Source: Fusobacterium necrogenes (GTDB lineage: Bacteria; Fusobacteriota; Fusobacteriia; Fusobacteriales; Fusobacteriaceae). Taken from it: a stretch of 64,000 bases of DNA. The number at the start of each line of letters is the position of its first letter. The first letter of the stretch is position 1. Under the pieces are notes generated by a model. That model searched no databases. It saw only the letters and a program-made list of their open reading frames with translations, and was not told where the DNA came from. This document shows positions 18,344 through 22,650 of this stretch, one piece after another. Both the position numbers and the translations under genes were made by a program. The stretch lies in the NCBI RefSeq assembly GCF_900450765.1, contig NZ_UGGU01000003.1, positions 186,001-250,000 on the forward strand, read 5' to 3'.

Positions 18344-18640
18344 CTATTTTGTTTCAGCTACTTCACAAGCTTCACAAGTAGCTCCATTTAATTCTCTTTC
18401 AGCTAGGATATCTTCAATGTGCTCTTTTGTTTCTGTTAAAGCTTCTACTGACATAGCTTCATAATTAACAGAGTCACAAGATTTTATATTGATACCTTGA
18501 TTTCTTAAAAAAGCATCAACCTTAGTTTTATTTTTTTTGTATAGATAGTATCCTGCTACTGTTACTCCTATACCTACTGCAGCTCCTACTACATGGGCTT
18601 TTGTTATTTTTCCATTTCCACCAAATCCAAATCCGAACAT
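18344..18640 (-). CDS. small membrane protein of fez-like locus (DUF6110-like)
   Basis: 98 residues. A glycine-rich N-terminus (GFGFGGNG) precedes one transmembrane segment ([18 protein letters not shown]) with small-residue packing. The soluble tail contains HIEDILAERE, resembling the EDILAE stretch I associate with DUF6110 proteins that accompany HMA-like proteins and P-type ATPases in anaerobes. Three cysteines lie near the end. It is the last gene of the five-gene operon. By analogy it may be a ferrosome membrane component, an inference from context rather than homology I can test here. Confidence 0.6.
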   Translation of the reverse strand: MFGFGFGGNGKITKAHVVGAAVGIGVTVAGYYLYKKNKTKVDAFLRNQGINIKSCDSVNYEAMSVEALTETKEHIEDILAERELNGATCEACEVAETK

Positions 18641-18654
18641 GGTAATACCTCCTA

Positions 18655-19410
18655 TTATTTATTTATTGTAATATACTTTTCTGTATTTTTAGACATATTT
18701 TTATTTTTTCTGAAGAAGATATGATAGATTAAATCACCAATGTTATCTATGCTATTATCTTCACAAACATTTGCTATATAGTAATCTTTATTTTCCTGTT
18801 TGTTTTTTATTCTAAAAAATTTCACTTCTTTTGCATCATTATTAGTAGAAATAATATGTCTACCAAATGTAGTAAGCCAAATCATAGCTACTAATGAAAG
18901 TTTTGGAGTATCTAAAAATGATTTAACAAGATATACTGCAGGGAGTATTTCTAAATCAAATACGCCTTTTCTATTAGTTTCTATACAAGCGTGTTCTAAT
19001 ATGGCAGTTGATGTTAAAGAAATAGAAAACCAATTCATCATATTTTGTAGTTGAGTGTCTTCTCTGTTTATTAGCATATTTAATCCTGACATCAATATAG
19101 AAGCTCCTGAATAGATAGCAAAACTTTCTATCGCTTTTTGTTCTATACCATCTAAAAGTTTAACTGGCATCATTCCGTTTTCAATAGAAAAAGCCGTGAG
19201 TATCTTATAGATAGCTTCTTGGAGATTTATTTTTTCAGGATTGAATGTAGCTACTACACTTTTAGTTATAGGGCTATATTTTAATTCTATACTTTCGTTA
19301 TCTTTAGTAACATTATCCTTAAAAGCCTCTAAAGATTTTATTGGTTCAGATAGTTTTAATCTCACTCTATTTGGCAACTTATGCATTATTATTACACTAA
19401 GTTTTTTCAT
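18655..19410 (-). CDS. HMA-like (R-rich) membrane protein of fez-like locus
   Basis: 251 residues. The N-terminal 90 fold like an HMA domain but lack CxxC; instead the first strand ends in MHKLPNRVRLKL, an R-rich motif shared by the other proteins of the operon. The remainder has two or three hydrophobic segments (about 95-115 and 150-185) and a polar C-terminus. It belongs to the HMA_2-type proteins found beside P1B ATPases. It may help build the membrane of an iron-storage body. Nine bases separate it from the ATPase gene. Confidence 0.65.
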   Translation of the reverse strand: MKKLSVIIMHKLPNRVRLKLSEPIKSLEAFKDNVTKDNESIELKYSPITKSVVATFNPEKINLQEAIYKILTAFSIENGMMPVKLLDGIEQKAIESFAIYSGASILMSGLNMLINREDTQLQNMMNWFSISLTSTAILEHACIETNRKGVFDLEILPAVYLVKSFLDTPKLSLVAMIWLTTFGRHIISTNNDAKEVKFFRIKNKQENKDYYIANVCEDNSIDNIGDLIYHIFFRKNKNMSKNTEKYITINK

Positions 19411-19419
19411 TTTTTCTCC

Positions 19420-21615
19420 TTAATTTTTTAATTTGTATTTTAGAAGTTTTAAAGAATTTCCTACAACTAAGATTGTACTCATATTATGTATTATAGAACT
19501 ATAAATTGCAGGAAGTATTCCAGTAGCTCCTAAAACTAGAGCAAAAGAGTTAATACCTATTGCCATAGCAAAATTTTCTTTTATTGTCTTAACAGTTTTT
19601 TTAGAAAGGCCGATTACTTCTGGAACTAATAAAGGGTCATCTTTTGTAATAGTTATATCAGCTGCTTCCATAGCTACATCTGTTCTTGTGCTTCCTAGCG
19701 CTACACCTATATTTGCATATGATAGAGCAGGAGCATCATTTATTCCATCTCCTATCATAACTACATTGCTTCCTCTTGACTGTAAAGCTAAAATATTTCT
19801 TGCTTTATCTTCAGGAAGTAGCTCTGATTCATAGCTATCTATTGACATTCTAGAAGCTATAGTTTGAGCTTGTTGTTCTAAATCACCTGTAAGTAATACT
19901 ATTTCATCTATTCCCTGTCCTCTTAATCTATTTATAGTCCTTTTTATATTTTCTCTAGGTGGATCTGTAACTCCAATAAGTCCTATCAACTTGTCATTTT
20001 TAGCTACATATATTAGTATTTCTCCTCTACCTAAGATAAACTTCATTTCATCATGGGAGTTTTCTGTAGTAATACCGCTTTCTTCCATGAACTTTTTATT
20101 TCCTACTCTTATTATACTATTTTCTACTTCAGTTTCAATACCTCTTGCAACAACAATTTTATTTTCAGTATGATTAGGTATTTCTATACCTCTTTCTTTT
20201 ACTTCATTTAAAATTGCTATTGCTAAGGGATGAGTAGAGGTTTCTTCTGCTGCAGCTGCGTATGCGAGCATCATATTTTCACTTAGGCTTTTATCAAGTA
20301 GTTTTATGGTTTGAACTCTAGGTTTTCCCTCTGTGATTGTTCCAGTTTTATCAAAGATAATTGTATCTGCTTTAGATATCTCTTCTATATAGTTACTTCC
20401 CTTGATAAGTATTCCATTTTTTGCTGCTGTATTAATAGCTGCTGAAAAGGCTGCTGCTGTTGATAATCTTATTCCACAAGAGTAATCTATAACTAGCATA
20501 CTCATAGCTTTTTGAATATTTTTTGTAGCCCCATAGACTATACCAGCTAGTAAAAAGTTTAGAGGTATGAGTTGTGCTGAGAAATTATCAGCATAGTTTT
20601 GAATTTGAGCTTTATTAAAATTAGCATCTTCTACTAGTTTTATAATTCTTGAAACAGTTCTCTCATCTCCAACTTTTTCAGCTTCTATTGTGATATTTCC
20701 ACTTTTTATAATTGTTCCTGCGAAAACATTTTCACCGACTTTTTTAGTTACAGGCATGTATTCACCTGTTATAGAAGATTGGTCAATATAAGCTTCTCCT
20801 TTGGTTATTATACCGTCAACACTTATTTTTTCTCCGGTTTGGACAACTATTTTGTCTCCTTTATTGATTTCTTCGATTGCTACCTTTTGGATACTTCCAT
20901 TATCTGTCACTTTCCAAACATAGTTTTCACCAACGCTTAGCATATCTTTTATAGCTCCTCTGGTTTTTTTCATTGTATATACTGTAAGAAGTTCAGCAAA
21001 CTCTTCCATTATCATGATAGTAAGAGCTGTTTTTTCTTTACCAAGTAATAAACTACTTATTATGGCGCTAGAGCTTAATGTATCAGCATTAGGTCTTTTA
21101 TTTTTAACTAGACATCCCAGTCCATTTGATATAACAGGAGCAGCAAGAGAAAGTACTACTAAAGTGTTGGGATTAAGCAATCTTTTTATTCCTATAACTG
21201 GAGCTACAGGAGCTTTTTTAAATATGTTATATAGTAAAAGTATACCAGCAGCTGCCATTTTTTTTATAATTTCTTCAGGAGATTCCTCTTGTAACTTTCT
21301 TTCTATGACTATATTTTTATTACTTTCTATTTTTTCATTTTTGTATATCTCCACTAGATAAACATTTAAAGTGTTTTGGATAAAGGCTATCAAGTTATCA
21401 TCAGTGACGTTTATATCGTCAAAATAAATAACTACTGTTCCTGTGATACTACTAATTTTAGCACTTTTTATATATTTTACCTGTTCTAGTTGATTTTCTA
21501 TTTCAGTTTTCAATCTTCCCAAATATTTTAAAGACTTAGATTTTATACGAATTCTACCTCTTATCTTATGAACTACTTCACAATATAAGAGATGCCCATC
21601 ACTTCTACCATTCAT
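19420..21615 (-). CDS. P1B-type metal ATPase with R-rich N-terminus and SCG motif (FezB-like)
   Basis: 731 residues. The N-terminus carries VHKIRGRIRIKS (15-26) instead of a CxxC metal site. Actuator TGEYMP (283-288), phosphorylation DKTGT (422-426) and hinge GDGIND are intact, so it is a working P-type ATPase. The membrane metal motif is SCG (379-381), not CPC or CPH. As I recall, an R-rich N-terminus with a non-CPx SC motif characterises P1B-6 ATPases such as FezB, which are needed to form iron-containing ferrosomes. The neighbours (HMA-like, DUF6110-like) support this. The metal is inferred as iron but not shown. Confidence 0.85.
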   Translation of the reverse strand: MNGRSDGHLLYCEVVHKIRGRIRIKSKSLKYLGRLKTEIENQLEQVKYIKSAKISSITGTVVIYFDDINVTDDNLIAFIQNTLNVYLVEIYKNEKIESNKNIVIERKLQEESPEEIIKKMAAAGILLLYNIFKKAPVAPVIGIKRLLNPNTLVVLSLAAPVISNGLGCLVKNKRPNADTLSSSAIISSLLLGKEKTALTIMIMEEFAELLTVYTMKKTRGAIKDMLSVGENYVWKVTDNGSIQKVAIEEINKGDKIVVQTGEKISVDGIITKGEAYIDQSSITGEYMPVTKKVGENVFAGTIIKSGNITIEAEKVGDERTVSRIIKLVEDANFNKAQIQNYADNFSAQLIPLNFLLAGIVYGATKNIQKAMSMLVIDYSCGIRLSTAAAFSAAINTAAKNGILIKGSNYIEEISKADTIIFDKTGTITEGKPRVQTIKLLDKSLSENMMLAYAAAAEETSTHPLAIAILNEVKERGIEIPNHTENKIVVARGIETEVENSIIRVGNKKFMEESGITTENSHDEMKFILGRGEILIYVAKNDKLIGLIGVTDPPRENIKRTINRLRGQGIDEIVLLTGDLEQQAQTIASRMSIDSYESELLPEDKARNILALQSRGSNVVMIGDGINDAPALSYANIGVALGSTRTDVAMEAADITITKDDPLLVPEVIGLSKKTVKTIKENFAMAIGINSFALVLGATGILPAIYSSIIHNMSTILVVGNSLKLLKYKLKN

Positions 21616-21616
21616 C

Positions 21617-22000
21617 TTATTTTCCTTTCTTTAATTCTTTACATAAAATTTCATAAAATTTATCTAAGTTTTTCTCTATCTCCTCAACTGACATTTTATT
21701 GTAAACATCTTCATTTTCAACTATTTTTTTCCATACAAAATTTAACCAATCTAGAATCTTTTTTTCGTTTGTAAGTTGTGGATTATATGTTACAAGTACT
21801 TTACTTGTAATATATGAATAGGTGATCTCTTCTATTCCTTTTTCCATTTTGATTATACTTGTAGTATAATGTTCATATTTTTTCATATCTTCAGGAACTT
21901 TATCTAATCCAGGAAATTGTAATCTTAGTCTCCCTGGAATACTATGAATTACCTTTATTTTATTAAAGTATAAAAAAGCTGATTTTAAGAGACTATTCAC
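21617..22000 (-). CDS. HMA-like R-rich protein of fez-like locus
   Basis: 127 residues. IHSIPGRLRLQF (19-30) is the R-rich motif shared across the operon, followed by an HMA-like strand-helix pattern without cysteine ligands and a helical C-terminus. There is no strong membrane segment. GTG start at 22000 with a GGAGGA site; it overlaps the stop of the upstream gene by one base (TAGTG) and lies one base from the ATPase start. It is probably an accessory partner of the P1B ATPase. Confidence 0.65.
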   Translation of the reverse strand: MNSLLKSAFLYFNKIKVIHSIPGRLRLQFPGLDKVPEDMKKYEHYTTSIIKMEKGIEEITYSYITSKVLVTYNPQLTNEKKILDWLNFVWKKIVENEDVYNKMSVEEIEKNLDKFYEILCKELKKGK

Positions 22001-22494
22001 TATTTTCCTCCTTTAGATATAATGTTGTATCCCCACCATAACAAATTGACACCATTTGGCATTATAGGATTTTGTCTAACTTTTCTTATTCCGTATATTA
22101 TAAATAAAAGAGCTATCGAAGTCTTTAAATCTAATATGCCTTTTGTTTTGTTATAAATCATGAAATCTATACTCTCAAGCATCTCATTCATAAAAGAGAA
22201 AATTTTTCCATTTTTCTTTTCAAAAACCTCATCTTCTAAGCCTAGAACATTGAGCACAGCACCCATAAGTGTTATAGGATCAATAAGTTCTTCAGAAAAC
22301 TTTATAAGAACACTTCCTATTAAGGTATTTACAGTCATATCCTCTATCCCATCAAAAGTAGAAAATTTTTCAATTAAAGATTTTGCTTTTTCCTCATCAC
22401 CTATGAGGATGTTAACTTTTAATCTTAATCTACCTTTTATATAATGTTGTACTTCTAATATTCCATAAAAGTCTGGGAGCATATTTTTGTTCAT
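22000..22494 (-). CDS. HMA-like R-rich membrane protein, first gene of fez-like locus
   Basis: 164 residues. It opens with an HMA-like domain containing QHYIKGRLRLKV, the same R-rich motif, then a hydrophobic segment near 127-140 (SIALLFIIYGI) and a short second one. It lacks CxxC. As the first gene it is preceded by a strong promoter. Together the four R-rich proteins of this operon share one motif at the same place in each, suggesting a common binding surface. The specific role is unknown. Confidence 0.65.
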   Translation of the reverse strand: MNKNMLPDFYGILEVQHYIKGRLRLKVNILIGDEEKAKSLIEKFSTFDGIEDMTVNTLIGSVLIKFSEELIDPITLMGAVLNVLGLEDEVFEKKNGKIFSFMNEMLESIDFMIYNKTKGILDLKTSIALLFIIYGIRKVRQNPIMPNGVNLLWWGYNIISKGGK

Positions 22495-22541
22495 TTGATC
22501 ACCTTTTATTTATAATTTATACTTATTTAGTTTATTGTCAT

Positions 22542-22570
22542 AGTATACACTTTTTTTTTTAATAATTCAA
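22542..22570 (-). promoter_or_regulatory. promoter of the fez-like operon
   Basis: On the minus strand TTGAAT (22570-22565), a 17-base spacer rich in A, and TATACT (22547-22542), about 48 bases upstream of the first gene. An AT-rich region upstream (GATAATTCTGATATTTTATAT) might hold a Fur-like site, but no clean palindrome could be fixed. Confidence 0.6.
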
Positions 22571-22611: not shown

Positions 22612-22650
22612 ATATAAAAAGCAGACCTTATATTGGACTGCTTTTCACAT
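22612..22650 (-). terminator. terminator after the DUF2023 gene
   Basis: On the minus strand AAAAGCAG and CTGCTTTT form a hairpin between about 22617 and 22646, with a T run leftward. It separates the flavodoxin unit from the fez-like operon. Confidence 0.65.

Follow-up and report, generated by a model that had tools for sequence, protein, structure and literature searches.

A candidate fez-type operon of distinct five-gene form, with a FezB-type P1B-6 ATPase, in Fusobacterium necrogenes

Does an operon of Fusobacterium necrogenes that combines a P-type ATPase with several arginine-rich proteins encode a ferrosome system? C. difficile needs FezA and FezB, which are Fur-repressed, to form ferrosomes (review PMC12574912); CD630_05920 and CD630_05910 have been called fezAB (PMC11651100), and both the ATPase CD630_05910 and the hypothetical protein CD630_05920 are found in iron/Fur response tables (PMC6311696). 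The operon studied here lies in a 64,000-nucleotide stretch of contig NZ_UGGU01000003.1 (the window), for which an initial annotation had proposed a candidate ferrosome locus. Judged from sequence, the view that the five genes constitute a distinct form of operon around a FezB-type P1B-6 pump is well supported. We lean, with some reserve, towards the reading that it would encode a fez-type metal compartment system, and we infer the iron cargo and the organelle by analogy with C. difficile, across a pump identity of about 33%.

The five ORFs lie nearly end to end on the minus strand between positions 22494 and 18344, in the order E-D-C-B-A (Table 1). Since the gaps E/D, D/C, C/B and B/A measure −1, 1, 9 and 14 bases, respectively, co-transcription is likely, as had been supposed. 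By its sequence, the TTGAAT-17-TATACT element is the probable operon promoter, and a TTGAATT...TATACT-like arrangement is kept upstream of the orthologs in L006, L046 and L048.

Table 1. The five genes of the operon and its putative promoter (window coordinates).
Feature	Position	Strand	Description
gene E, 164 aa	22000..22494	-	stand-alone HMA_2 protein, R-rich strand HYIKGRLRLKV, then three helices
gene D, 127 aa	21617..22000	-	stand-alone HMA_2 domain, R-rich strand HSIPGRLRLQF; GTG start overlaps stop of E
gene C, 731 aa	19420..21615	-	FezB-type P1B-6 ATPase, R-rich HMA_2 at residues 13-85
gene B, 251 aa	18655..19410	-	R-rich HMA_2 domain and four helices; without A, P or N domain
gene A, 98 aa	18344..18640	-	a single membrane helix rich in Gly, together with an acidic helix
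putative operon promoter TTGAAT-17-TATACT	22542..22570	-	9/12 consensus matches, within shuffle background

The catalytic motifs DKTGT, TGE, HP and GDGIND are intact in the protein encoded by gene C, and the ATPase should therefore be active. At the M4 site, VIDYSCGIRLST takes the place of the CPx of Cu and Zn pumps; the SCG that the initial annotation had noted in place of CPx was found at residues 379-381 (DYSCG, with Cys380), and M6 contains H710-N711. The M4 signature and the HN of M6 are present in all 44 five-gene ATPases, none of which has CPx or CxxC, and an R-rich HMA_2 N-terminus without CxxC is found in 41 of the 44, the rest being broken or variant. The ATPase of the window is 92% identical to that of strain An814, which places the host close to F. 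mortiferum. From its sequence, the classification of gene C as a P1B-6 ATPase of the FezB type is well supported. The proposal that all five genes are free of CxxC held for the ATPase but not for gene A, which carries CEAC at residues 89-92; this tetrapeptide is not conserved, and a CxxC of any kind occurs in 6/44 orthologs of A. Two orthologous ATPase genes are split into two ORFs with intact neighbours (L050 4702-6896 in genome G027 and L062 5056-7238 in G075), and their sequences would fit either natural breakage or sequencing error.

A tree of 47 proteins was built with IQ-TREE (supports are given as bootstrap/SH-aLRT). The SCx pumps, which comprise those of the five-gene type, of pBM400 and of the C. 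difficile type, fell on one side of a branch supported at 99/95, and the CPC R-rich, Cu and Zn/Cd pumps fell on the other. When pumps from Vibrio, Deinococcus and Gloeothece were added, the SCx group was recovered at 96/93 with the Gloeothece pump (FGTGIRVS) inside it, and a C. difficile/Deinococcus/Vibrio/Gloeothece side was set apart from a five-gene/pBM400 side, each at 100/99; a constraint uniting the strictly C-containing pumps without Gloeothece was not rejected (p-AU 0.076). The ATPase thus groups with C. difficile-type FezB and apart from the Cu and Zn/Cd pumps, as had been guessed, rather than in a clade of transporters for another metal. The suggestion of a distinct lineage is borne out as well, the five-gene clusters and the pBM400 cluster forming a subclade of their own. 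The Gloeothece pump, which sits beside the Vibrio pump on long branches, is encoded on a Gloeothece verrucosa plasmid (L206 4878-10381); it is R-rich with FGTGIRVS in M4, and a 522-aa HMA2 protein and a DUF5132 protein are encoded close by.

We then considered the arginine-rich domains. The motif H-x-x-x-[GN]-R-x-R-x is present in four of the five operon proteins (HYIKGRLRL, HSIPGRLRL, HKIRGRIRI and HKLPNRVRL) and in none of the other ORFs of the window (77 ORFs of at least 90 aa were scanned). The four N-terminal domains are homologous according to hhalign (probability 97-99%, with 99% for the gene D domain against the ATPase N-terminus). Because the motif is confined to these ORFs and the profile comparison reaches 97-99%, its fourfold occurrence reflects real homology and not chance, which upholds the earlier description of four HMA-like proteins or domains with a common R-rich motif. 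Pfam HMA_2 (PF19991) matches E over its full length with an E-value of 5e-54, and also D (3e-7) and the beginning of the ATPase (4e-13); for gene B, the family was reached via orthologs only (20/31). The HMA fold in the model of E (pLDDT 87) matches an ATP7B domain with Z 9.1 over 65 residues at 1.4 A. Read at the level of sequence, the operon carries four R-rich HMA_2 modules: one by itself, one followed by three helices, one by four, and one as part of a full pump. The possibility that the helical tail of E is a piece of a pump was rejected, as the profile-comparison test gave nothing better than controls.

The initial annotation had allowed that the R-rich motif might be missing from known Fez proteins; C. 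difficile-type FezB has an R-rich HMA_2 N-terminus. The motif is also present in the CPC pumps of L116-L118 and in a Rhodococcus pump (L068), and on this sequence evidence it is a marker of a wider pump group that is not diagnostic of ferrosomes. Two of these loci contain tandem pairs of R-rich pumps with CPK and CPC in M4 and a small helix protein between them (L116 1996-7092 and L117 2188-7287). Just upstream of the five-gene cluster in genome G154, a 619-aa R-rich P-type-ATPase-like protein is encoded (L101 7952-9811) that keeps DKTGT, has GTGQ in place of TGE and CPT in M4, and may, by these motifs, be an inactive pump relative.

The R-rich CPC pumps of L116-L118 and L068 belong near the CtpC/DUF1490 kind, which has been described as P1B6-like (PMC9374683). 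In CtpC/PacL1, a mycobacterial zinc efflux platform for which no organelle has been reported, M6 contains HN and the pump gene is accompanied by one for a small helix partner (PMC9374683). An R-rich HMA_2 domain and a small helix protein are common to both systems, and the neighbouring branch outside the SCx clade has pumps with a DUF1490 partner (L068 and L207), among which the Rhodococcus pump has GRIRV near its N-terminus. The five-gene operon might by the same token form a plasma-membrane efflux platform without an organelle, the ATPase exporting Fe(II) (or Mn/Zn) while the small and HMA_2 proteins cluster and stabilise it. We regard this alternative as unlikely, though a serious one: the ATPase has SCG and not CPC in M4 and groups with C. 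difficile-type FezB, whereas CtpC has CPC, falls in another clade and exports zinc. A topology in which the five-gene pumps joined the R-rich CPC pumps was disfavoured at p-AU 0.018, a value not to be taken at face value because the alternative was named after a quick tree and long branches are present.

The AlphaFold model of gene B (mean pLDDT 79.5, pTM 0.59) has an HMA-like fold followed by four helices. A fold search returned the MA-M2 part of the cadmium pump 7qbz as its top row (Z 8.4) and the same part of ATP7B at Z 7.0, with unrelated bundles scoring up to 8.1; by itself this search proves nothing, and the half-pump claim is founded on profile comparison. In that comparison the helical part of B aligned with the ATPase over 67 collinear columns covering MB-M1-M2 with a score of 23.6, which was never reached by 60 column shuffles (maximum 19.7) or 60 reversed rotations (maximum 15.4); the probability that hhalign itself assigns to the helical part is 8%. 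Homology of the helices of B to MA-MB-M1-M2 of the ATPase is likely, not proven, from these profiles, and gene B looks like the N-terminal half of a pump (HMA_2 plus MA-M2) without the catalytic domains, a feature that is new here. His140 and His185 (numbering of the window protein) are invariant in 31-32 gene B orthologs. The idea that gene B is a FezC-like haem protein is kept only as a lead: it has the two invariant histidines in its favour, but Pfam DUF4405 matched none of the five operon proteins or 31 gene B orthologs.

In the gene A product, a glycine-rich helix and an acidic one, the latter ending in E-x-I-E-D-I-x-A-E, are strongly conserved among orthologs. The initial annotation had called this last gene DUF6110-like, and as a family claim this fails: Pfam DUF6110 (PF19605) matched 0/24 gene A orthologs, and a profile comparison with hhalign gave a probability of 6-7%, similar to that of the best-scoring column shuffles. 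What the two have in common is the layout, DUF6110 members (FezA) carrying E-D-I-x-A-E-A-K.

Conservation of the operon across fusobacteria was confirmed. Among 98 Fusobacteriota genomes searched, 30 from two families have a close ATPase (at least 56% identity, the window's own included), and in all 24 distinct fusobacterial genomes that were read the five genes occur in the order E-D-C-B-A, with E cut by a contig end in two. The identical order was found in 18/18 Firmicutes loci, that of Acetoanaerobium pronyense and 17 from its order. Across 247 genomes from the latter order, 21 have a five-gene-type ATPase, 32 have DUF6110 and none has both; with about 2.7 co-occurrences expected by chance, mutual exclusion is suggestive only. 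Gene E was found in none of the phage records. A 2.1-Mb record named Fusobacterium vincentii plasmid pSB055A (L066, NZ_CP084075.1) also has the operon, and appears to be a chromosome that was deposited as a plasmid.

The iron context was examined next. Flavodoxin and DUF2023 genes adjoin the operon in the window and had been taken as consistent with iron starvation. The adjacency is real but local: flavodoxin is a neighbour in L006, L046 and L048 and DUF2023 in L046 and L048, all within the F. mortiferum group, and flavodoxin is preceded by a perfect-consensus promoter of its own. A hairpin with a T run (AAAAGCAG...CTGCTTTTT, at about 22615-22650), read from the sequence, lies between DUF2023 and E. 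No 15-mer with 12/14 matches to the Fur-box consensus occurs anywhere in the window, the best upstream of the operon having 10/14, and nothing convincing was seen upstream of flavodoxin; the consensus may not fit this phylum, since the feoAB upstream region also lacks a clear box by eye or by palindrome scan. The single Fur-family gene found in the organism's own genome (L173 478-1293, contig C3, about 1863.9-1864.7 kb) is followed by a superoxide-reductase-like gene, and because of this neighbour its product may be PerR-like rather than Fur. We also tried the idea that the operon replaces ferritin. A strong ferritin match was present in 0/14 operon-bearing genomes of one family (f1) but in 14/16 of the other (f4), and replacement is no general rule. 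With no Fur box and no conserved iron-gene neighbour, the pump could carry a different divalent metal (Mn, Co, Ni or Zn) while belonging to the P1B-6 branch; metal specificity is unreadable from sequence, and the change from CPx to SCx does not name a metal. Such a cargo nevertheless seems improbable to us, for the one placed member of the branch that has been studied genetically, C. difficile-type FezB, is an iron protein (PMC12574912), and no neighbour from another metal pathway is conserved.

The fez-type reading thus draws on synteny (24 genomes and 18 loci), on the clade at 99/95 and 96/93 and on the M4/M6 signature in 44/44 ATPases. It is weakened by the mismatch of gene A with DUF6110, by the lack of a DUF4405/FezC match and of a Fur box upstream, by the transfer of function over about 33% identity from a C. 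difficile relative without the three extra HMA_2 proteins, and by the zinc-exporting CtpC-like CPC branch with its similar small partner and no reported organelle (PMC9374683). Literature searches found no report of granules in Fusobacteria, and no granule, iron or expression data for any five-gene cluster. If the operon does act in the fez manner, the ATPase would carry cytosolic Fe(II) across a membrane by way of the DYSCG site of M4 and the HN site of M6. The HMA_2 modules, having lost the metal-binding CxxC and carrying paired arginines on their first strand, would probably serve in docking or regulation (binding each other, phospholipid or phosphate) and not as metal carriers. The half-pump encoded by gene B, which lacks catalytic domains, would probably sit beside the ATPase in the membrane, and gene A would probably gather the pumps in a patch, in the way that PacL1 clusters CtpC; upon iron limitation or iron return, this patch might bud or fill as an iron-phosphate ferrosome.

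A bolder version, which we consider doubtful, is that of a distinct ferrosome machine of Fusobacteriota and anaerobic Firmicutes, in which the P1B-6 pump and catalytically dead relatives of its own N-terminal half (the half-pump with His140/His185, HMA_2 alone, and HMA_2 with three helices) would assemble into a hetero-oligomeric membrane coat with two tasks, iron loading and the shaping of the organelle. Should the operon make ferrosomes, Fusobacteriota would join the groups with iron organelles, a second pump lineage would be tied to such organelles, and the five genes would offer a compact set in which to learn which parts make the compartment. The presence of a half-pump and of stand-alone HMA_2 partners suggests docking on proteins or lipids, and not metal carriage, as the role of the R-rich domain.

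How does the five-gene form compare with known systems? In the D. magneticus-type fezABC locus, FezC is a DUF4405-like ferrosome cytochrome; gene B is likewise helical with two invariant histidines, but lacks a DUF4405 match and has helices that resemble MA-M2 of the ATPase. A DUF4405-like cytochrome is missing from the C. difficile-type loci read too, and FezC is thus not universal. It is possible that the five-gene form is already in the gene lists of the primary ferrosome papers (Grant 2022, Pi 2023).

For the C. difficile type we used genome G198, phage phiC2 DNA having pointed to G198, G155 and G213. Its ATPase gene, at 711.6-713.7 kb on the minus strand, follows that of a 131-aa DUF6110 protein, and the product has GRIRF at the N-terminus, SCALKLS in M4 and HN in M6. 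Because this position and the preceding DUF6110 protein fit the listing in PMC6311696, we infer that the ATPase is CD630_05910 and the locus CD630_05920/05910 (fezAB), and with it the species name of G198. Both systems encode, in one operon, a P1B-6 ATPase (R-rich HMA_2 N-terminus without CxxC, SC[A/G] in M4, HN in M6) and a small single-helix protein that also carries an acidic EDI[L/V]AE helix. The C. difficile-type loci read have two genes only, with the small gene upstream and matching Pfam DUF6110 (80 bits); the window operon has three extra HMA_2 proteins, its small gene comes last and is not DUF6110, and ATPase identity is ~33%.

An unannotated cluster on the megaplasmid of Vibrio sp. 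THAF190c (L205 4286-8049) is a candidate gammaproteobacterial fez-type locus. Its SCA P1B-6 ATPase is likewise accompanied by small helix proteins and by an HMA_2-like protein that contains GRVRL; the cluster differs in having only one stand-alone R-rich protein and three small proteins, without a half-pump protein. The six-gene operons of Shewanella or Rhodopseudomonas, reportedly treated by Grant in 2022, might be its equivalents. The Priestia megaterium plasmid pBM400 has the arrangement HMA2-HMA2-ATPase-HMA2-small, with R-rich motifs and an ATPase in the same subclade (100/99). Its ATPase is 38.7% identical and has ICG instead of SCG in M4, and its 74-aa protein is matched by the gene A profile (E-value 9e-9).
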